NCBI GenBank assembly: GCA_017458125.1
Contig: JAFTGB010000042.1
Coordinates: 42,045-106,044 of the forward strand
Origin: Prevotella sp.
Lineage (GTDB): Bacteria; Bacteroidota; Bacteroidia; Bacteroidales; Bacteroidaceae
Direction: 5' to 3'
DNA: 64,000 nt
Positions 13,906-63,210 of the stretch are shown one piece after another. Position 1 is the stretch's first letter; each line of letters opens with the position of its first letter. Position numbers and translations under genes: made by a program. The notes below the pieces were generated by a model. It had not been told where the DNA came from, did no database searches, and worked only from the letters and a program-made list of their open reading frames with translations.

Positions 13906-14858
13906 GGTGGATTGACTTTCTGCGTGGCATCTCCATGATAGCCATCTTCGTATTCCATACGGAGGTGTATTACAAGGAGTACAATGTGTCACCTTATTAT
14001 CTGTATACCACCAATGCTATCATCTTATTCTATTTTCTTTCAGGCTATCTATTCTATCGTGAGTATGGGTTTGATATGAGAAGAAAAGTGGTTTCCATTT
14101 TTCGTTCTATGATGATACCATACTTTGTCTTTACCACATTGACAGCTCTTCCTAAAGCCATTATCCGTCATAGCGATATACACTGGCAGGACGTTTTGAT
14201 AAATATTATAACCGGCAGAGCTTCATGGTTTATCGTTGCCTTAATTGTAGCAGAAATAGCTTTCTCTGCATTATTAGTCATCAGTCGTGGCAAGAACGGT
14301 TGGCTGCTACTCATATCAACGGTGTGTTTTATGGCCTACTACGTTGTACCTTTCAACCAGCATAATTATTGGCAATGGCAAGACGCTTTATTAACGTTAC
14401 CTTTTCTTTGCATAGGCTTCCTGTATCATAAGTACGAAAAACATTATGTTTTGCAGTCGAAAACATCATACTTAGCAGGGCTAAGTATGATACTTATCGG
14501 TATTAAACTATATGAACTCCGCCTTGATCTGCCTATGCGCAACATCGCCATCGAAAACATACCACTGTTTTTGGCTGATGCCATAGTCTGGCTATTGTTA
14601 GTCGTTTCAATAATCAAATATATTCCACACTTCAGATTGATAGAATGGACTGGTCAACATTGCATCATCTACTATTTCCTCTGTGGTGGCTGCCCGTTGA
14701 TAATTTCTACTTTACTTAACAGAATAGGACTTACGTACGACGGCTGTTTCTATTGTTTTCTGATAGCCTTTCTACTCAGTTATACTTTAGCTACTGTTCT
14801 TACAGCAGGTATATATAAATATGTACCGTTTATCATAGGAAAAAATGCCAGAGCTTAG
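13872..14858 (+). CDS. Acyltransferase family 3 membrane protein
   Basis: Polytopic membrane protein of about 328 aa. It begins RVGWIDFLRGISMIAIFVFHTE, which fits the acyltransferase-3 signature (Arg-Asp-x-x-Arg-Gly, then His in the first helix). Members O-acylate surface sugars or other extracytoplasmic acceptors. ATG codons at 13872 and 13893 are both possible; the first overlaps the upstream gene by 34 bases. Its stop overlaps the convergent nadA stop inside a 16-bp palindrome (14851-14866). Confidence 0.8.
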   Translation: MFHRENNMERVGWIDFLRGISMIAIFVFHTEVYYKEYNVSPYYLYTTNAIILFYFLSGYLFYREYGFDMRRKVVSIFRSMMIPYFVFTTLTALPKAIIRHSDIHWQDVLINIITGRASWFIVALIVAEIAFSALLVISRGKNGWLLLISTVCFMAYYVVPFNQHNYWQWQDALLTLPFLCIGFLYHKYEKHYVLQSKTSYLAGLSMILIGIKLYELRLDLPMRNIAIENIPLFLADAIVWLLLVVSIIKYIPHFRLIEWTGQHCIIYYFLCGGCPLIISTLLNRIGLTYDGCFYCFLIAFLLSYTLATVLTAGIYKYVPFIIGKNARA

Positions 14859-14866
14859 CTAAGCTC
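14851..14866. repeat. Palindrome holding both convergent stop codons
   Basis: GAGCTTAGCTAAGCTC is perfectly self-complementary and contains the TAG of the acyltransferase gene and, on the other strand, the TAA of nadA. It has no loop or T-run, so it is not a classic terminator. Confidence 0.7.
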
Positions 14867-15844
14867 CAGCATTCGTTCTATGGGTTTGACGGCATCTTTA
14901 GCTATTGCAGGGTCCACTTCTACCGAAGGCCATTCGTACTTCAGACAGTTGTAAACCTTCAGCAACGTGTTCATCTTCATATACTGACACTCGTTACACG
15001 AGCATTCCAAGCCGCTCTCGCTGATTTCGGGCGGCACGGGTATAAACTCCTTGTCGGGGCACGTTCGTTGCATCTCGTGCAAAATACCGGCCTCTGTAGC
15101 CACAATAAACTGCTTACTACCACTCTGCTGGGCATAGTTCAGCATGGTGGCCGTACTGCCTTTGACATCGGCTAAAGCCAAAACAGGACCTTTACACTCC
15201 AAATGAGCCATGACAACAGCCTCGGGATATTGTTTCTTCAGTTCGGCAATCTTGTTGACCGAGAAACGCTCATGCACATGACAGCCACCATTCCAAAGTA
15301 GCATCTGACGACCCGTCACCTCATTGATGTAATTGCCTAAGTTATAGTCAGGACCGAAGATGAGTTTGGCATCCTTCGGCAACTGGTCGACCACCTTCTT
15401 GGCATTGCCGGAAGTGACTACAACGTCGGTCAGTGCTTTTACGGCTGCTGTGGTATTGACATAACTTACTACTTGATAGCCAGGATGCTCGTCCTTAAAC
15501 TTTCTGAGGTCTTCGGCATTGCATGAGTCTGCCAGCGAACAACCTGCATTCAAGTCAGGACACAGCACCGTCTTGTCAGGACTTAGCAGTTTGCAAGTCT
15601 CAGCCATGAAGTGGACACCACACATGACCATCATCCGCGCATCAGTCTCTGCAGCTTTACGAGCCAATGCCAACGAGTCGCCCACAAAGTCGGCAATGTC
15701 TTGAATATCACCGACAGTATAGTAATGTGCTAAAATGATGGCATCTTTCTCCTTACACAAACGGCGTATCTCGGCCTTCAAATCAGTACCTTCAGCAACC
15801 GGTTCATCAATGTAACCTTTCTCTTTCCACTCAGTTTTCAACAT
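14855..15844 (-). CDS. nadA: Quinolinate synthase A
   Basis: Condenses iminoaspartate with dihydroxyacetone phosphate to quinolinate in de novo NAD synthesis. The 329-aa protein carries the three cysteines of the 4Fe-4S cluster in their usual contexts: NAGCSLADSC (about 111-116), HLECKG (about 200) and the C-terminal ECSCNECQYMKMN. AHYYTVGDIQDIADFVGDS is the N-terminal signature. nadB and nadC are not in the window. The upstream region holds DnaA boxes, and the nearest -7 box gives a leader of about 200 bases. Confidence 0.95.
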   Translation of the reverse strand: MLKTEWKEKGYIDEPVAEGTDLKAEIRRLCKEKDAIILAHYYTVGDIQDIADFVGDSLALARKAAETDARMMVMCGVHFMAETCKLLSPDKTVLCPDLNAGCSLADSCNAEDLRKFKDEHPGYQVVSYVNTTAAVKALTDVVVTSGNAKKVVDQLPKDAKLIFGPDYNLGNYINEVTGRQMLLWNGGCHVHERFSVNKIAELKKQYPEAVVMAHLECKGPVLALADVKGSTATMLNYAQQSGSKQFIVATEAGILHEMQRTCPDKEFIPVPPEISESGLECSCNECQYMKMNTLLKVYNCLKYEWPSVEVDPAIAKDAVKPIERMLELS

Positions 15845-16220
15845 CGTATTATTTTTATTTTCTTTTTATTTTTTCTTTTAAAAAAAGAAATGAATAGGAT
15901 GATATGACGTTGAAAAGTGCAAAACTTCTTCTGCTTTTTCTTGACTGATAGGTTATTCACCCTTAACAGTGTCTTTTCTACATCCTTTGTGGATAGTTTC
16001 TTTTTGATAATAAGTCAAATAAGTATTTTATCCACCATTTTCTTTTTCGGTGCAAAATTAATAAGTTTATATCTTTTTCAAGCCAAAAATGGTGGAAAAG
16101 TTACGGATAAAGGTTTATTTTATGCGTGAAATTCACAATAGGGCAGGTGAGCGTTGGATTATTTCTGCGTTGTCAACAAGTTATTATGTGTTTTATCCAC
16201 ACAGTTATCCACAACTTTTT
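15845..16220. other. oriC: Candidate chromosomal replication origin (DnaA-box cluster)
   Basis: AT-rich intergenic region between divergent nadA and the SpoU gene. An A/T tract (15848-15895) could be the unwinding element. DnaA boxes (consensus TTATNCACA): perfect TTATCCACA at 16193-16201 and 16205-16213; one-mismatch copies at 15953-15961 (TTATTCACC), 15988-15996 (reverse strand) and 16028-16036 (TTATCCACC). The two perfect boxes are direct repeats 12 bases apart. parS sites and mnmG lie about 10 kb away. The boxes also overlap the promoter region of the SpoU gene, so DnaA-controlled transcription is an alternative. Confidence 0.6.
16053..16060 (-). promoter_or_regulatory. -7 box TAATTTTG, possible nadA promoter
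   Basis: Minus-strand match to TAnnTTTG. It is the closest one to nadA and would give a leader of about 200 bases that crosses three of the DnaA boxes. Confidence 0.4.
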
Positions 16221-16222
16221 CG

Positions 16223-16230
16223 TAACTTTG
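16223..16230 (+). promoter_or_regulatory. -7 box TAACTTTG for the SpoU methyltransferase
   Basis: It lies 10 bases upstream of the ATG at 16240, so the mRNA leader is only a few bases. The two perfect DnaA boxes end 9 bases before it and overlap the expected -33 position. Confidence 0.6.
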
Positions 16231-16239
16231 CAGGCAGAA

Positions 16240-16770
16240 ATGAGAAAAATCAGAACCATAGAGATGCAGCGCCTTACGGTGGAGGAGTATCGTGAGGCTG
16301 AGAAGTTGCCGTTGATTGTTGTATTGGACGATGTTCGTTCGATGTATAACATAGGTAGTGTATTCCGTACTTGCGATGCCTTCCGGGTAGCAGCAGTATA
16401 TCTGTGTGGCATTTGTCAAACGCCGCCGTCTACTGAAATTCACAAGACAGCTCTCGGAGCTGAGGAGAGTGTCAGCTGGAAGTATTTTACTACGGCAATA
16501 GAAGCCGTTGCAACACTGAAAAACGAGGGCTATACCGTACTTTCAGTAGAACAGGTAGAACATAGTACCAAACTACAGACATTCGTGCCGCAACGAGGTA
16601 AGAAATATGCCGTAGTGCTTGGCAACGAAGTGAAAGGCGTCCACCAGGAAGTGGTAGACGCCTCGGACGGTTGTCTGGAGATACCACAATTGGGCACCAA
16701 GCACTCCATGAATGTCTCCGTAACAGCCGGCATCATCATTTATAAGTTTGCCGAAGAATTAATACTCTGA
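16240..16770 (+). CDS. SPOUT (TrmH/SpoU) RNA 2'-O-methyltransferase
   Basis: AdoMet-dependent RNA ribose methyltransferase with a knotted SPOUT fold; 176 aa, compact and without the N-terminal substrate domain of RlmB. The three family motifs are clear: NIGSVFRT (near 38), VVLGNEVKGV (near 129), and SMNVSVTAGI (near 156). The exact tRNA or rRNA target cannot be read from the sequence. The frame is open upstream to 16126, but the promoter lies between, and ATG 16240 gives MRKIRTIEM as in relatives; ATG 16264 is the alternative. Confidence 0.88.
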   Translation: MRKIRTIEMQRLTVEEYREAEKLPLIVVLDDVRSMYNIGSVFRTCDAFRVAAVYLCGICQTPPSTEIHKTALGAEESVSWKYFTTAIEAVATLKNEGYTVLSVEQVEHSTKLQTFVPQRGKKYAVVLGNEVKGVHQEVVDASDGCLEIPQLGTKHSMNVSVTAGIIIYKFAEELIL

Positions 16771-26244: not shown

Positions 26245-26260
26245 GTGTTTCACGTGAAAC
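26245..26260. other. parS: parS centromere-like site (perfect)
   Basis: TGTTTCACGTGAAACA is the exact 16-bp palindrome bound by ParB/Spo0J. It fills the 25-base gap between apt and uvrC. In other bacteria such sites lie close to oriC and serve chromosome segregation. Confidence 0.85.
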
Positions 26261-26261
26261 A

Positions 26262-26789
26262 TTATACCGTCATCAGTGTGGTCAGGTCAATGTCTTTGAA
26301 AAGGTCACGACCGTGTAGTCCTTCATCGCGTATTTCTATAATGAAGTTCATATAGATTTTCTTCGGATGGAAGTGTTCTACCAGTTTGTAGGTTGCTTTT
26401 GCTGTGCCTCCAGTTGCCAATAAATCGTCGTGTATCAGTACAACATCGTCTTTGTCTATAGCGTCAATATGCATCTCTACTGTGTCCACTCCATATTCTT
26501 TACTGAACTGTTCTTTAATTACCGTGCTTGGGAGTTTTCCTGGTTTGCGTGCCAGCACTACTCCGCAACCCAACTTTCCTGCTAATGCTGAAGCCATCAC
26601 AAAACCGCGGCTTTCAACTCCAACAATCTTGGTGATACCTTTGTCTTTGTATAACTCATACATCTCGTCGAGCATGATCTTCATGCATTCCGCATCCTTG
26701 TATAAAGTGGTAACGTCACGAAAGTTGATACCCTTTCTTGGAAAGTCGGGTATACAACGTAAGTTTTTCAATAAAATCTCATTGTTCAT
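26262..26789 (-). CDS. apt: Adenine phosphoribosyltransferase
   Basis: Purine salvage enzyme converting adenine and PRPP to AMP; 175 aa, cytosolic. The PRPP-binding loop is VVLIHDDLLATGGTA (near 118-132) and GVESRGFVMASALA (near 57) is the PPi loop region. It sits between mnmG and uvrC on the same strand, flanked on both sides by parS-type sites. Confidence 0.95.
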   Translation of the reverse strand: MNNEILLKNLRCIPDFPRKGINFRDVTTLYKDAECMKIMLDEMYELYKDKGITKIVGVESRGFVMASALAGKLGCGVVLARKPGKLPSTVIKEQFSKEYGVDTVEMHIDAIDKDDVVLIHDDLLATGGTAKATYKLVEHFHPKKIYMNFIIEIRDEGLHGRDLFKDIDLTTLMTV

Positions 26790-26833: not shown

Positions 26834-26849
26834 TGTTTCACGTGGAACA
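26834..26849. other. parS: parS-like site (one mismatch)
   Basis: TGTTTCACGTGGAACA differs at one position from the perfect parS palindrome and equals the variant allowed in known parS consensus sequences. It lies in the 82-base mnmG-apt spacer, 574 bases from the perfect site. Confidence 0.75.
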
Positions 26850-26871: not shown

Positions 26872-28776
26872 TCACCTCCCCAAAAGCACCAGCATGGCAT
26901 TGATGTCGCTTGGCGAAACGCCAGGTATTCGGCTGGCTTGTGCCAATGTCTCTGGTTGTATGCGTTCCAATTTCTGTCGTGCTTCCGTTGAGATGGCCGT
27001 CAGTGCAGGGTAGTCGAATTTGCCTTTTATCTTGATGTTTTCTAAGCGGTGCATCTTCTCGGCTACTTGTCGTTCGCGTTCTATATAGCCTTTGTACTTC
27101 ATATAGATCTCTGCAGTTTCAGCAGTTTCTTCTTTTCTGTTCGGTAAGTTGTCGATGAGTGCGCGTAGTTCTGGAACGATTTCCTTCAGACGTTCAAAGT
27201 TCAACTCTGGACGTGCTACGAGGTCTTCCAGTTTACAGCCATAGACGAGTGGGGTAGAGCCCATGGCTTCTAATGCTCCGTTCACTGCTTTGGGTTTGAT
27301 GGCGTATTTACTGCAAAAATCTACGATTTCTTCAATATGTGTTTTCTTTTGTAGCCACCAGTCGTATCGCTCCCTTGTGGCCAATCCCAGTTGGTATGCC
27401 TTCTGGGTCAGTCGTGCATCAGCATCGTCTTGACGCAGTAGGATACGATACTCAGCTCTTGAGGTAAACATTCGGTAGGGTTCATCTACTCCCTTCGTCA
27501 CCAAGTCGTCAATGAGTACGCCGATGTAGGCTTCGTCTCGTTTCAACTCAAAGGTGACGCTTGCGTCTGTTGTCTCAGAGCCAGCCATCAGGGCGGCATT
27601 GATGCCCGCCAGCGTACCTTGTCCGCCAGCCTCTTCATACCCTGTGGTGCCATTCACCTGTCCGGCCATAAAGAGTCCTCTGATGATTTTCGATTCCAAC
27701 GAGTGACGTAGTTGGGTAGGGTCGAAGAAATCGTATTCAATAGCATAGCCAGGACGATACACTTTGATGTCGCGCAGGGCGGCTATTTTCCTTAGTGCTG
27801 ACAGCTGCACATCCATGGGTAGTGATGACGAGAAGCCATTCAGGTACATCTCGTTGGTGTCTACCCCTTCTGGTTCCAAGAACAGCAAGTGTTGTGGCCG
27901 GTCAGGAAATGTGACGAGTTTTGTTTCTATCGAAGGACAGTAGCGCGGACCTATTGACTGTATCTGTCCGTTGTAGAGCGGCGAGTCAGCCAGGCCACTG
28001 CGTAGCGTCTCGTGCACTTCCTCGTTAGTGTAGCATACCCAGCAAGGCAGCTGATGCAGCGGGCGCTGTTCTCCCAAGTAGGAAAACTTATAGTAACCGT
28101 TTTCACCATCCTGACGTTCCATGTCTTCAAAGTGCACGCTGCGTTTGTCTATACGGACAGGAGTGCCTGTCTTCATGCGTGCCGAGCGGATGCCATGGCG
28201 AGTGATGCTCTCGGTGAAGTGCGGAACGGCAGGTTCGGCTATGCGACCTCCAGGAACCATCCTCCTGCCAATATGCATCAAACCGTTAAGGAATGTGCCG
28301 CAGGTTACAATGACGGCCTTGGCCCTCAGTTCGCAGCCCCAGATGGTTTTTACGCCTACTACGTGTTTGCTGAGGGAGGAACTGTCAGAAACATTTTCTA
28401 CCAGCAGTTCGTCCGCTTGGTCTTGCCAGATGTCGAGGTTAGGCGTGTTGTCCAGCATCTCGCGCCACTTCCAGATAAACTTGCCACGGTCGCACTGTGC
28501 CCTGGGACTCCACACAGCAGGACCCTTCGAGCGGTTCAGCATGCGAAACTGGATGGCGGTGGCGTCGGTGACGATACCCATCTGACCACCTAAGGCATCT
28601 ATCTCGCGCACCATCTGACCTTTGGCTATGCCGCCAACGGCAGGGTTGCAGGACATCTGCGCAATCTTGTTCATGTCCATCGTGACCAGACATGTTCGGG
28701 CTCCCATGCGGGCAGCAGCACATGCTGCTTCGCAACCGGCATGACCGCCGCCTACCACGATGACGTCGTACTTCAT
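26872..28776 (-). CDS. mnmG: tRNA uridine-5-carboxymethylaminomethyl modification enzyme MnmG (GidA)
   Basis: FAD protein that, with MnmE, installs the cmnm5 group on the wobble uridine of several tRNAs. The 634-aa protein has the dinucleotide-binding motif VVGGGHAGCEAACAAARMG at the N-terminus, CNPAVGGIAKGQ near 45 and GQVNGTTGYEEAAGQG near 370. ATG 28776 is preferred over ATG 28782 because the -7 box ends at 28787. mnmG (gidA) is a common neighbour of bacterial replication origins. Confidence 0.96.
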   Translation of the reverse strand: MKYDVIVVGGGHAGCEAACAAARMGARTCLVTMDMNKIAQMSCNPAVGGIAKGQMVREIDALGGQMGIVTDATAIQFRMLNRSKGPAVWSPRAQCDRGKFIWKWREMLDNTPNLDIWQDQADELLVENVSDSSSLSKHVVGVKTIWGCELRAKAVIVTCGTFLNGLMHIGRRMVPGGRIAEPAVPHFTESITRHGIRSARMKTGTPVRIDKRSVHFEDMERQDGENGYYKFSYLGEQRPLHQLPCWVCYTNEEVHETLRSGLADSPLYNGQIQSIGPRYCPSIETKLVTFPDRPQHLLFLEPEGVDTNEMYLNGFSSSLPMDVQLSALRKIAALRDIKVYRPGYAIEYDFFDPTQLRHSLESKIIRGLFMAGQVNGTTGYEEAGGQGTLAGINAALMAGSETTDASVTFELKRDEAYIGVLIDDLVTKGVDEPYRMFTSRAEYRILLRQDDADARLTQKAYQLGLATRERYDWWLQKKTHIEEIVDFCSKYAIKPKAVNGALEAMGSTPLVYGCKLEDLVARPELNFERLKEIVPELRALIDNLPNRKEETAETAEIYMKYKGYIERERQVAEKMHRLENIKIKGKFDYPALTAISTEARQKLERIQPETLAQASRIPGVSPSDINAMLVLLGR

Positions 28777-28786
28777 AATCATGTGG

Positions 28787-58252: not shown

Positions 58253-61200
58253 TTATTTTGCCAACGTTAAGTCTATTAAGAGCACTGCCGTTTCAGGTTC
58301 TTCCTTTCGGGCATCCTTAGGTTTCCATGCTACGATGTAACGGACAGAAGCTGAAAGGACTCGATATCCTTTTTCTTTCCATGCAGATAGAGTGGCTTGC
58401 ATGGATGTTGACAATTTGGCTACTGCCTTATGTGTAGTTGGTGAATAGAAGTAGCAGTCCTCTATCATCAGACTATCACCGCTTCGCAAGGATAACACCT
58501 CTTTCTTTATGGGCTTGAAGAAATCCAGAAATACATCTTTATGTGACAATTGCAGAACGATTTCCTCTGGCATGGGGTATTGTTGGTTGTCATCCTGATA
58601 TTTGTCTGTTGACATGTGTGCGAAAAGGTCACCATTGGAATGAATGAACAAGCGTTTCTTGGCACGTGTTATTCCAACATAATACTGGCGGAAAAGTTGC
58701 TCGTTTTTGTATGGTCTGTCGGACAAAAGCATATATACATCGTCAAACTCACGTCCTTTGGCTTTGTGGATAGTGGACACAACAACCGTTGCATTGGAAA
58801 CATCGCAGAAGTCTTCAACCGATGACTCAAATAAGAACTCCCAAAGATCTGTCTGATATTTGGCCCGGTTAGTAAGTTCAAATAGCTCTACGCAACGTTT
58901 TACTAATGGGAGACATAGGCTCCCATCATAGATTTCAAAAGTAGAACGTTTAGCTTCTTCCCAAAGTTCATCGGGGATTAGTGGAGTGCTCAACCGTTTG
59001 GATATGTACTTCAATAGGTACTTAACCTCAGCTAGATTGGAGAAATGGAAGCCATCCATGGACTGCACCAGTTTGCTCTGAATACTATGTTTTCTGAGTA
59101 AGGCAACAAGAATAACAGCCTCCTCATTTGTTTGAGTTAAAATGCATGAAGTACCAGTGCCTTTTTGCGCGATTAGATTCTCAATCAACGGCTGATACAT
59201 GTACTGAGAGGTATGGCGTATTATTTCAACACTTCCATTCTCGTTGCTCATGGAGATAATTGGCGTAGCTTTCATCCTCTGACCAATCCTTTTTACAAAG
59301 GCATTGGCGAATGCCACCACATGCTTGGAACTGCGATAGTTCTCTGTCATTTCAAAGAAACGACTGTCAGGCTCTTTTGATAATTGATAGAGGTATTGGG
59401 AGTCGGAGCCACGGAACTCGAAGATATTCTGGTCATCATCTCCAACGGCAATGACGCGCATCTCTTCATTACTATTCATCAGAGCCCTTATTAAGGCATA
59501 TTCCTCGGCACTCATGTCTTGTGCCTCGTCAATGACCAGCACCGTCTTGCCGATTTTATTTGGTTCTACCTCGCCTTGATTAATCATTTCAGCAGCCTTT
59601 GCCACCACGTCCTTGACATCCTCCAGATTTCCTATGCGTCCTAATAAATCGAAACTATAGGAATGAAAGGTCTTGATTTCCACATAATGAGCAGCCTCGC
59701 CAATCAAGGCTATTAACCGTTGTTTAAATTCGGTAGCTGCTGCCCGTGAAAAAGTCAGCATAAGCAGTTGCTCATGTTTTACGTCTTCAAGCAGAAGGAG
59801 TGATGCCAGTTTGTGAACTAATACACGGGTTTTGCCGCTCCCGGGACCTGCTGCTACGACAATGCAACGTGAAGTTTTGTCGGATATGATTTCCTTTTGT
59901 CGTTCAGATAGCTGCGCAAAGAGTTTCTGGTATTTCTTAGGAGTGATGTTCCTTTGGATCTCACGTCCTCGTTCCCCTTTGAAGTATTTGGTGATGAAAC
60001 GTTTATAGTCCATCTGAAAGTAGTCCTGCACATATAGTTGTGCAGCCTGATAGTTGCGTACCATCAGGTTGGCGTATTCCCCGACGATGTGAATTTGTTG
60101 GATTTTCTGTTTGTAGAACTCGTCCAGCATGCGATAGTCATCCTGTTTATAGCGCAGTTTCATATCCTTTAGCCGATGGATAGCCATAGCATTGTAGAGC
60201 ACCATGAAACCTCCATCCAGTTTAAGTGCGCCGATATTTGACAAGTAAAGAAGCCCCTCTTCTACATCTTCTATTTGAACATCCCCACGGGAGTTGAAAA
60301 AAGATTGCCCATTTATCTTGATTTGGTTCAGCAGTTCAACGATGGAGAACTGTACTATCTTATTGGCTAATTCCTCTTTGGTTGATACTTGCTTACTATA
60401 AAGCCATTCTAATGCAAATCGGCAGATTTCGTGCCTTTGTTCACATCGGCTATTGGTCTTGTCTTTGTCTGCCTGCCGCGTCAACTTTATGTTCCGAGCA
60501 GGGTCTTCCAGTTTGCGGACATATCCCTTGATGGTGAGAAAATAGAGTAGCGTTCGGATGCATTTCTCGTTAGACGTAGTAATGCCGTAGTTGACAGCAT
60601 CATCGTTGAGTTGCTTAGCTGAAATCACTAATCCATCATCAGCAATACGTCCGATGATGTATCGTTCAAGTTTGGCAAATCGTTCAAGTATCATCATTGA
60701 TTTGCGTTCAGTTGCACCTTCATCCTGCAAGTAGGCAGTAATATCCTTGCTATCGGCCAGTATTCCTTCCTGACGCATCCGCATGACGGCAGAAACCACC
60801 TCATTCCTGGTCAGTCCAAGTATGTCTGCCAGATAATCCACACGCGACTCTGCATCTGCGTCCTGAGCCTTTGCAATATGCTTTTGAGAAATCAGCGACT
60901 TGATGATTCTGACAGCTTTTTCTCGGTCTTCATTATCAAACAACATTGATGCCATGATGCGTTGTCGGGCCTCGTCCACGTTTTTCACAGTAATGCCTGT
61001 GGCATAGACATGCGGCATGTTATTACCTCGTTCCAAATAACCAGCCTGTTCAAGCGCGGCAATGGCTGTCCGCACACGAGTCTCAATATCTGGTACGGCA
61101 TCGCTCCATCCAGCCAGACGGGCTATCTCCAATGATGAGCAACTCACATGAGAGCGTTGTCTGGTCATTTTCTTTACAGCCATCCATACCTGCTGTATTT

Positions 61201-63055
61201 CACTGATACTGAGTTTCGTTTGATTCAGCAGTACAAAGTGTTTGTCAAGGTCATTGTCGCTATAAAGTACATAGCAGCGGGCATTCAGGTGTGGATCCCG
61301 GCCAGCTCGTCCTGCCTCCTGAACATAATTCTCCAATGAATCGGAAATATTATAATGCACAACCAGTCCCACATCCTTTTTGTCAACTCCCATGCCAAAA
61401 GCAGATGTTGCCACAATGATACGGACACGGCCAGACATGAACTTGTCTTGATTGGCCACTTTCTCGTCTGTATCCATTTTGCCATTAAATGGCAGGGCGT
61501 GATAACCATCACGTGTTAATCGTGCTGACAATTCATGAGTACGACGTGTACGAGCCACATAGACAATGGCAGGACAGTTGTATTCGGAAAGCAATGCTCT
61601 CAGTTTCTGATACTTTTCCTCATCTGTATCAGCGTGAACAACAGCATATTGCAAATTTGTACGTGTGGCCTTTGAGGCGTAGAGTTCCAAGTTGAGCCAT
61701 AGCGTTTGCTTGAAATAATCACAGATGTCCTGAATAACCTTCTGCTTGGCGGTAGCCGTGAAACAAGAAACGGGAATGGCCTGTTTGCAACCTTTTTTCT
61801 TCTGGTATTCGCGGATGAACTTTCCGATATAGAGATAGTCCACGCGGAAATCCTGTCCCCATGAGGAAAAACAATGAGCTTCGTCAATTACGAAGCGCAC
61901 TACATGGCGAGCCAAGAGGATCTTCTCTATGGTTTTCGAGCGGAGCATTTCCGGAGCTATATATAATAAGGATGCCTCACCATCCTGTACCCTCTGGATA
62001 GCCGATGCCCGGGTGATGGGGTCAAGCAGCCCATTAATAGTGACAGCATCAGTAATGCCTCGTTCTGCAAGGTTGTCAACCTGATCTTTCATCAGTGACT
62101 GTAAGGGAGATATGACTACAGTCAGTCCGTGTACCGTTCGTCCTGCCATCAGTGCTGGCAATTGGAAAGTCAAAGACTTTCCGCCACCAGTAGGGAATAT
62201 GGCAAGAAGGGAAAGTCCCTCAACAGCAGATTTTGCTGCACGTTCTTGGAGAGGTTCGCCCTCATAGGTTCGGAACTCATCGTAACCAAAGAAAGCCTTC
62301 AGATTAGAATGAATGTCCAAAAAGTGGTTGCAATAATCACAGTCTGGCTCTTGACAATGCCGTTGTCGCAAAACAGCTATTACATATTCCACTCCAGGAT
62401 AGTTGTGGAGCACCCATCCTGGTGTGATGGAACGTTCATCTGTGGTGTCAATCAGTGTAAGAGCGTAAGCCAATTCAACGGGGTATTGCTCTGCCAAAGC
62501 TACCACATCGGCATATTGACAGATGCGACTTCTGTACTCATTCCATATTAAAACAGGCACATTTATGTTGACTTCTCCAGTGTTGGCAAAATTTATAAAT
62601 CCTTTAAACTCCTGTTTCCCATGAAGTAGTGCCGTGAGTATTTTGCGTTTTCTCTCGGGCATTTCTTTCCAGCAAGCCAGCTCGTCCATCAGCAAGTCGC
62701 GGGCTTTCTCGCAATCATTAACGGGGTTGTTCATCTGCTCACTGATTAACTTGTCATCTTTCAGAAGCCGATGATAGGGACGTTCTGGAAACAATAGAGG
62801 TGACATAAAGAGCGTGTCAACCAGTATGAAGCGGTCGTTGTCATTTTCAAACAGATATTTCGCATCATGGTGAATAATATTATGTCCACACACATACTTC
62901 ACATTGTGCAGAAATAACATCAGTTCCTCTTTGTTGCAGCCATGATAAACAGCACCGTCGTCACGCAAAGCCCCTATGTCATGTATTTTGTGGTCACTCA
63001 AACTGACCTCAACATCCACGACAGCCCAGTGATTAGTGTTACCACAATCTTCCAT
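58253..63055 (-). CDS. DEDD exonuclease-RecQ-UvrD tripartite helicase
   Basis: 1600 aa. N-terminal DnaQ-like exonuclease (about 8-125: VVDVEV with Asp14/Glu16, GHNIIHHDAKYL with Asp64, NPVNDCEKARDLL with Asp114). A Cys cluster (CQEPDCDYCNH, near 234-243). RecQ SF2 helicase (about 250-640: FPTGGGKS near 287, VIDEAHCFSSWG, QEAGRAGRD). Winged-helix region (about 680-900). UvrD SF1 helicase (about 1045-1500: AAGPGSGKT near 1070, VIDEAQDMSAEEY, GDDDQNIFEFRG, STIHKAKGREFD, YVGITRAKKR). ATG 63055 is used because the -7 box lies at 63078-63085. Stand-alone gene. Confidence 0.9.
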   Translation of the reverse strand: MEDCGNTNHWAVVDVEVSLSDHKIHDIGALRDDGAVYHGCNKEELMLFLHNVKYVCGHNIIHHDAKYLFENDNDRFILVDTLFMSPLLFPERPYHRLLKDDKLISEQMNNPVNDCEKARDLLMDELACWKEMPERKRKILTALLHGKQEFKGFINFANTGEVNINVPVLIWNEYRSRICQYADVVALAEQYPVELAYALTLIDTTDERSITPGWVLHNYPGVEYVIAVLRQRHCQEPDCDYCNHFLDIHSNLKAFFGYDEFRTYEGEPLQERAAKSAVEGLSLLAIFPTGGGKSLTFQLPALMAGRTVHGLTVVISPLQSLMKDQVDNLAERGITDAVTINGLLDPITRASAIQRVQDGEASLLYIAPEMLRSKTIEKILLARHVVRFVIDEAHCFSSWGQDFRVDYLYIGKFIREYQKKKGCKQAIPVSCFTATAKQKVIQDICDYFKQTLWLNLELYASKATRTNLQYAVVHADTDEEKYQKLRALLSEYNCPAIVYVARTRRTHELSARLTRDGYHALPFNGKMDTDEKVANQDKFMSGRVRIIVATSAFGMGVDKKDVGLVVHYNISDSLENYVQEAGRAGRDPHLNARCYVLYSDNDLDKHFVLLNQTKLSISEIQQVWMAVKKMTRQRSHVSCSSLEIARLAGWSDAVPDIETRVRTAIAALEQAGYLERGNNMPHVYATGITVKNVDEARQRIMASMLFDNEDREKAVRIIKSLISQKHIAKAQDADAESRVDYLADILGLTRNEVVSAVMRMRQEGILADSKDITAYLQDEGATERKSMMILERFAKLERYIIGRIADDGLVISAKQLNDDAVNYGITTSNEKCIRTLLYFLTIKGYVRKLEDPARNIKLTRQADKDKTNSRCEQRHEICRFALEWLYSKQVSTKEELANKIVQFSIVELLNQIKINGQSFFNSRGDVQIEDVEEGLLYLSNIGALKLDGGFMVLYNAMAIHRLKDMKLRYKQDDYRMLDEFYKQKIQQIHIVGEYANLMVRNYQAAQLYVQDYFQMDYKRFITKYFKGERGREIQRNITPKKYQKLFAQLSERQKEIISDKTSRCIVVAAGPGSGKTRVLVHKLASLLLLEDVKHEQLLMLTFSRAAATEFKQRLIALIGEAAHYVEIKTFHSYSFDLLGRIGNLEDVKDVVAKAAEMINQGEVEPNKIGKTVLVIDEAQDMSAEEYALIRALMNSNEEMRVIAVGDDDQNIFEFRGSDSQYLYQLSKEPDSRFFEMTENYRSSKHVVAFANAFVKRIGQRMKATPIISMSNENGSVEIIRHTSQYMYQPLIENLIAQKGTGTSCILTQTNEEAVILVALLRKHSIQSKLVQSMDGFHFSNLAEVKYLLKYISKRLSTPLIPDELWEEAKRSTFEIYDGSLCLPLVKRCVELFELTNRAKYQTDLWEFLFESSVEDFCDVSNATVVVSTIHKAKGREFDDVYMLLSDRPYKNEQLFRQYYVGITRAKKRLFIHSNGDLFAHMSTDKYQDDNQQYPMPEEIVLQLSHKDVFLDFFKPIKKEVLSLRSGDSLMIEDCYFYSPTTHKAVAKLSTSMQATLSAWKEKGYRVLSASVRYIVAWKPKDARKEEPETAVLLIDLTLAK

Positions 63056-63077
63056 GTCACAATAGTAAAATATGTTG

Positions 63078-63085
63078 CAAAGGTA
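63078..63085 (-). promoter_or_regulatory. -7 box TACCTTTG for the helicase
   Basis: It lies 23 bases upstream of the ATG at 63055. The bases 63086-63210 show nothing else. Confidence 0.65.
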
Positions 63086-63210
63086 CACAAAAAAGTGACA
63101 ATAAAGTAGAAAATCACGCAGTAAATCAAAAATCTGTCGTGTTATTGCAGAAAACCACTATCTTTACAGGTGAACTTGACGAAAGAAATGATAGGTGCTG
63201 TGGCAGGTAA

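Follow-up and report, generated by a model that had tools for sequence, protein, structure and literature searches.

The window analysed in this study is a 64,000-nt stretch of a Prevotella sp. draft genome (G000:C6:42045-106044), and the draft comprises 3.37 Mb in 86 contigs with a completeness of 88%. Within the window, the quinolinate synthase gene nadA and a gene for a SpoU/TrmH-family RNA methyltransferase diverge across a gap of 395 bp with 30% GC, which extends from the nadA start at 15844 to the SpoU start at 16240. As judged from the SpoU protein (best 80 of 448 matches), the closest named relatives are Prevotella assemblies with 93-94% identity, many of them labelled as coming from ruminants. 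Far to the right of this locus, a single open frame of 1611 aa occupies positions 58253-63088 on the minus strand. The features of the locus are collected in Table 1.

Table 1. Genes, DnaA boxes and other sequence elements at and near the nadA/SpoU gap, in window coordinates.
Feature	Position	Strand	Basis
nadA (quinolinate synthase), transcribed away from the candidate origin	14855..15844	-	PF02445, E 3.2e-120; NF006878
nadA/SpoU intergenic region, candidate oriC	15845..16239	.	element conserved in relatives
Conserved block, consensus GATGATATGnCGTTGATAAGTGCAAAACTT	15898..15927	+	alignment of 63 elements
Two-mismatch DnaA box TTATTCACC, 75 bp 5' of the 16028 box	15953..15961	+	box with at most one mismatch at the same offset in 19/63 related elements
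DnaA box CTATCCACA, one mismatch	15988..15996	-	box scan
DnaA box TTATCCACC (core-proximal), one mismatch; many relatives have it perfect	16028..16036	+	box scan and alignment
AT-rich core GGTGCAAAATTAATAAGTTTATATCTTTTT, candidate unwinding element	16049..16078	+	alignment; core 23-mer once in the window's genome
Predicted nadA promoter -7 element TAATTTTGC, inside the core	16052..16060	-	fits TANNTTTGY (PMC12632263, accessible text)
Weak inverted motif resembling a box, conserved: GGTGGAAAA (minus strand: TTTTCCACC)	16091..16099	-	alignment of relatives
First perfect DnaA box of the tandem pair, 165 bp 3' from the box at 16028	16193..16201	+	sequence; array geometry in relatives
Perfect DnaA box, direct repeat 12 bp after the 16193 box	16205..16213	+	sequence; array geometry in relatives
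Predicted SpoU promoter -7 element TAACTTTGC	16223..16231	+	sequence; motif from PMC12632263 (accessible text)
SpoU/TrmH-family RNA methyltransferase, transcribed away from the candidate origin	16240..16770	+	PF00588, E 2.8e-35
parS site TGTTTCACGTGAAACA	26246..26261	.	draft genome has only this match and the next
parS site GTTTCACGTGGAAC	26835..26848	.	second of only two draft matches

An earlier sequence-only reading of this DNA had described two perfect direct-repeat DnaA boxes and three one-mismatch boxes in the gap. The perfect pair, both copies reading TTATCCACA, is indeed present; two of the one-mismatch boxes were also recovered (15988-15996 and 16028-16036), but the likely third, at 15953-15961, carries two mismatches. 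The box cluster in the intergenic gap exceeds chance. In 1000 dinucleotide shuffles of the gap, the mean number of perfect boxes was 0.00 compared with the 2 observed; at no more than one mismatch the gap holds 4 boxes versus a shuffle mean of 0.12, and at no more than two mismatches 10 versus 1.54. None of the 1000 shuffles equalled the gap in any of these three counts. Over the whole window, boxes with at most one mismatch showed no excess (17 versus 14.25 expected), so the signal is one of clustering in the gap. The entire draft contains 18 perfect boxes versus 43 for the reversed control.

Two further sites in the gap are conserved in weaker form. The block at 15898-15927 contains inverted DnaA boxes (at most one mismatch) in G221, G254, G374 and G213 and is degenerate in the window, while the site at 16091-16099 forms a box of at most one mismatch in G296 only, among the four relatives compared on that side.

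Dense boxes by themselves are no proof of an origin, and the gap could instead be a DnaA-titration site of the datA kind, or some other DnaA-binding locus that lies near the origin but not at it. Against such a role, no second pair of perfect boxes within 40 kb on one contig occurs elsewhere in the 3.37-Mb draft, and this is also the outcome, for close perfect-box pairs, of the check for a stronger cluster that would have spoken against the sequence-only reading. Together with the strand-composition data given below, this makes a titration site extremely unlikely.

The arrangement of the boxes was compared in 138 SpoU-centred loci, comprising our own, 29 from the order, 80 named ones (best 80 of 448) and 28 more. 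An array of one box followed 150-185 bp further on by two boxes 10-25 bp apart was present in 63 of the 138 loci, including 58 of the 80 named ones (best 80 of 448). The spacing was 163-166 bp and 11-12 bp in 51 of these 63 arrays, of which 59 are distinct sequences. The most conserved stretch of the element is GGTGCAAAnnTAATAAGTTTATATcTTTTT, located 3' of the core-proximal box. At no more than three mismatches the core was found in 68 of the 138 loci, 62 of which also carry the array; it was absent from the other 70, in which short flanks only were searched. Relative to SpoU the core lies upstream in 53 of the 68 loci and downstream in 15, and the upstream distance varies from 163 to 2087 bp among the 60 loci listed. 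Of the core loci, 67 extend to nadA, and in every one of them a distance of 161-238 bp (median 206) separates the core from the start of nadA, from which it diverges.

At the genome level, the core 23-mer (at most two mismatches) was detected in 154 of 277 same-genus genomes, and the reversed control gave 1 match. The candidate origin element is conserved among relatives and present in a single copy per genome, with the core single-copy in all 23-mer-carrying genomes except G353, G403 and G485. Two copies or a near match were seen in these three (contigs C26 and C30, C29 and C8, and C1 and C38, respectively), and the G485 copy at a contig end may be an assembly duplication.

The core also holds a putative promoter element. 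The Bacteroides -7 promoter consensus is given as TANNTTTGY in the accessible text of a review (PMC12632263), and a fit to this motif lies inside the core on the minus strand, so placed that nadA is probably transcribed leftward from within the core and that its promoter would overlap the putative unwinding site. The motif CAAANNTA is intact in 61 of 61 distinct core sequences; as the cores were chosen by similarity to the 23-mer of the window, this invariance is inflated inside the 23-mer, though not at the flanking bases. Core variation is highest at the two N positions of the motif (commonest base 70% and 75%), followed by two other positions (87% and 89%).

These observations raise the question of whether the gap is merely a regulatory region of nadA (and SpoU), with a conserved nadA promoter and a leader of approximately 200 nt, to which DnaA would bind at most as a transcription regulator. 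The distance from nadA, and the fact that the core varies most at the two N positions within the -7 motif, both fit such a role. However, about 18 near-invariant bases 3' of the motif are unexpected for a promoter, even if their invariance comes partly from the similarity-based choice of cores, and an Rfam scan of the window at the gathering threshold matched no family. A regulatory region also leaves unexplained the proximity of parS and the skew switch described below. We consider it highly improbable that regulation is all that the gap serves.

The candidate origin is close to parS. The search motif GTTNCACGTGNAAC matched the draft only at the two sites of Table 1, about 10 kb from the gap, while its reversed control matched 1 place in the same genome and gave matches in 2 of 25 others. 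The sequence-only reading had placed parS and mnmG 10-13 kb away, which agrees well with the sites at 26246-26261 and 26835-26848 and with mnmG at 26872-28782 (10-12.6 kb). The two sites flank a gene at 26262-26789, an adenine phosphoribosyltransferase by eye, between uvrC and mnmG. The positions of parS and dnaA were compared in 25 genomes, namely 21 long-contig core carriers, three genomes from the order level and G213; 22 of them have a pair of parS matches no more than 1.5 kb apart and 3 have one match. Core and parS share a contig in 20 of the 21 picked carriers, 24-72 kb apart, and are on separate contigs in G207. With our own genome added to these 20 picked from 277, the distance is 10-72 kb in 21 of 21 same-contig genomes.

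The position of dnaA is different. In the window's genome dnaA is on another contig (C71), and in relatives its distance to the core is approximately 0.36 Mb or greater if the two share a contig; in the others it is on a different contig. A dnaA-linked oriC was rejected as a candidate, since dnaA does not adjoin the gap and is remote from the core in relatives. In G257, G261 and G276, which are assembled in two or three contigs, a single large contig carries both core and parS, and dnaA is located on a different one. This suggests that they are two-chromosome Prevotella in which the dnaA-bearing replicon has no core copy.

Strand composition was examined as third-position skew, computed on the longest non-overlapping open frames. 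The skew minimum that the sequence-only reading had named as a check requires a whole chromosome, which the 86 contigs of the draft do not provide, and samples from single-contig relatives were used in its place. Nine same-genus genomes consist of a single contig, and six of them were sampled over 400 kb each (G251, G252 and G363 were left out). The skew is negative to the left and positive to the right of the core in five of five chromosomes carrying it (G287, G221, G254, G296 and G374), in all of which the core lies beside nadA, even in G221, whose SpoU gene is 15 kb off. The expected arm sign was obtained in 93 of 100 samples (17, 19, 19, 19 and 19 of 20 per chromosome). When breakpoints were scored at grid steps of 5 kb, assuming a terminus opposite, no grid breakpoint outscored the core in any of the five chromosomes, a precision that is partly by design because the samples were deliberately placed at the core, while the arm signs are unaffected by this placement. 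With plain GC skew the core was the best breakpoint in two of the five chromosomes, and in the remaining three it was surpassed by 5-12% of positions. By third-position skew, strand composition switches at this site in relatives that carry the element.

A titration site near the origin would not account for this switch, as the sign changes between samples adjoining the element in all five chromosomes, although the right-hand sample of G374 starts about 43 kb from the core, across the record end. The same data bear on an origin next to dnaA. Origins proximal to dnaA are common among bacteria, and the same could hold here; yet dnaA scored below the core as a breakpoint in five of five chromosomes, with 25-77% of grid positions outscoring it, and in G287 both flanks of dnaA have a positive skew. 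The probability left to an origin adjoining dnaA is practically negligible.

In the window itself the skew is less clear. The sequence-only reading had judged by eye that composition changes across the gap. This holds at short range, with third-position skews of -0.232 on the left and +0.114 on the right within 8 kb and of -0.106 and +0.125 within 16 kb, but not over 48 kb, where no switch appears (+0.010 and +0.019). Plain GC skew of the window gave no clear signal at the 2-kb scale. An 8-kb stretch at -24 to -16 kb from the core has 60% GC, open frames almost all on the minus strand and a skew of the wrong sign (+0.166); it may be a recent insertion or inversion, or the frames may be misassigned in GC-rich DNA. 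The skew of the window alone would not decide the matter; what carries the case is the box cluster, together with parS and the homology with relatives.

The 23-mer was missing (at most two mismatches) from 123 of the 277 genus genomes, and skew was sampled in one of these, G213, in which no nadA match was found either. Its skew turns from -0.129 (640-660k) to +0.034 (660-680k), with an unexpected sign in 6 of 20 samples, and is thus noisier than in the five core carriers. The densest box cluster of the 160 kb scanned lies at 662.2-662.6k, about 62 kb from parS. At this cluster there is a diverged core that has lost GTGCAAA but retained TTTAATAAGTTGATATCTTT. In this one genome, therefore, boxes, TTTAATAAGTTGATATCTTT and skew switch are kept without nadA and without the GTGCAAA half, which speaks against a purely nadA-regulatory role of the gap, and the divergence separates a promoter half of the core from an origin half. 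G391, also without a nadA match, carries a similar GTTGATATCTT core.

We are thus very confident that the nadA/SpoU gap is the chromosomal replication origin (oriC), which the sequence-only reading had called probable. The sequence-based support consists of the box cluster, its conserved geometry, the single copy, the proximity of parS and the strand-composition switch in relatives. From these features we infer how DnaA binding, core melting and ParB action might follow one another. DnaA would bind on both sides of the core, at the 16028 box with the weaker 5' boxes and at the tandem pair 16193/16205. A filament growing from the 16028 box would then melt the AT-rich core at 16049-16078, directly 3' of this box. 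After helicase loading, two forks would depart, leftward via nadA and rightward via SpoU, and ParB, acting at the pair of parS sites 10 kb off, would then aid segregation of the new origins.

The oriC of E. coli is also located away from dnaA, has an AT-rich unwinding element beside a DnaA box and lies near promoters of flanking genes. The gap shares these three traits, the distance from dnaA, the AT-rich element by a DnaA box and the nearby promoters (predicted in the gap), and differs in flanking genes, core sequence and box spacing. Another counterpart is the predicted oriC of the first chromosome of P. intermedia OMA14, which according to the accessible text has several DnaA boxes at a GC-skew transition and is not near dnaA, an oriC far from dnaA being said there to be common in Bacteroidetes (PMC4755523). 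Several boxes, the skew transition and remoteness from dnaA are the points of likeness to our gap. The likeness is one of description only, because that text gives coordinates without sequence or flanking genes, and its description differs in having no core, parS or nadA anchoring. The basal unwinding system is described, in the accessible parts of two papers, as DnaA boxes plus DnaA-trios (PMC8287927, PMC6669920). The gap resembles it in having a DnaA box by an AT-rich stretch plus a tandem box pair, but differs in that this pair is about 165 bp from the core-proximal box. DnaA-trios after the core-proximal box were unsupported, since trio-like runs are no commoner than in shuffles: runs of at least three within 16 nt of the box occur in 50 of 67 loci versus 78% of mononucleotide shuffles, and the mean run is 3.01 versus 3.62.

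Beyond the genus, divergent nadA and SpoU genes face each other across a gap in 10 of the 29 best order-level SpoU loci and 11 of the 29 best order-level nadA loci; at the remaining loci the second gene falls outside the 1.5-kb flank. Together with one more, the divergent loci yielded 16 distinct gaps, 405-748 bp long, and another genus of the same family contributed two of these. In these gaps TTATCCACA is rare (2 occurrences), while TTATCAACA occurs 13 times versus 0.29 in shuffles and TTATTAACA 7 times versus 0.72. In 11 of the 16 gaps there is a AAAGTTAATAACTTT-like palindrome (at most 3 of 15 mismatches) at a distance of 143-216 bp from nadA, and the summed best mismatches to it amount to 33 compared with a shuffle minimum of 60. 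In G145, from another genus of the family, the nadA/SpoU gap has no box at one mismatch or fewer. Its skew changes from -0.24 for the 10 kb towards nadA to +0.16 for the 10 kb towards SpoU, and the more distant samples at 700k, 900k, 1100k and 1250k agree in sign; a sign switch within 10 kb is again not what a titration site would predict. Synteny and motifs, plus the skew of G145 as the one extra-genus genome, are consistent with an order-wide nadA/SpoU origin.

As a tentative proposal that may well prove wrong, the Bacteroidales could share one ancestral origin in the order nadA, oriC, SpoU. The -7 box of nadA would then be the very element melted by DnaA, so that promoter firing and origin opening would aid or exclude each other, and the box repertoire, TTATCAACA/TTATTAACA in most families, would have shifted over time to TTATCCACA in the Prevotella group studied here.

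Within the open-access literature, as far as its accessible text goes and with DoriC tables and supplements outside this scope, no paper puts a Bacteroidales oriC at nadA/SpoU. Ori-Finder 2022 relies on tabulated indicator genes that are specific to lineages, according to the accessible part of its description (PMC10225481), and nadA may already be among them. Some DoriC entries disagree with the true origin, as stated in the accessible text of a 2026 paper (PMC13342612). The oriC described here is ordinary in kind and well defined in anatomy, and the nadA anchoring outside the genus together with the promoter overlap are the parts most deserving of follow-up. The conserved core, 30 bases long and situated some 200 bp from the start of nadA, provides an oriC marker for draft Prevotella genomes; because a skew curve cannot be computed in draft genomes, a sequence marker is useful there. 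Such a marker serves read-depth estimates of growth rate, placement of the chromosome start and construction of origin plasmids. Finally, as the core is predicted to overlap the promoter of nadA, a connection of NAD synthesis with the initiation of replication can be put to the test.
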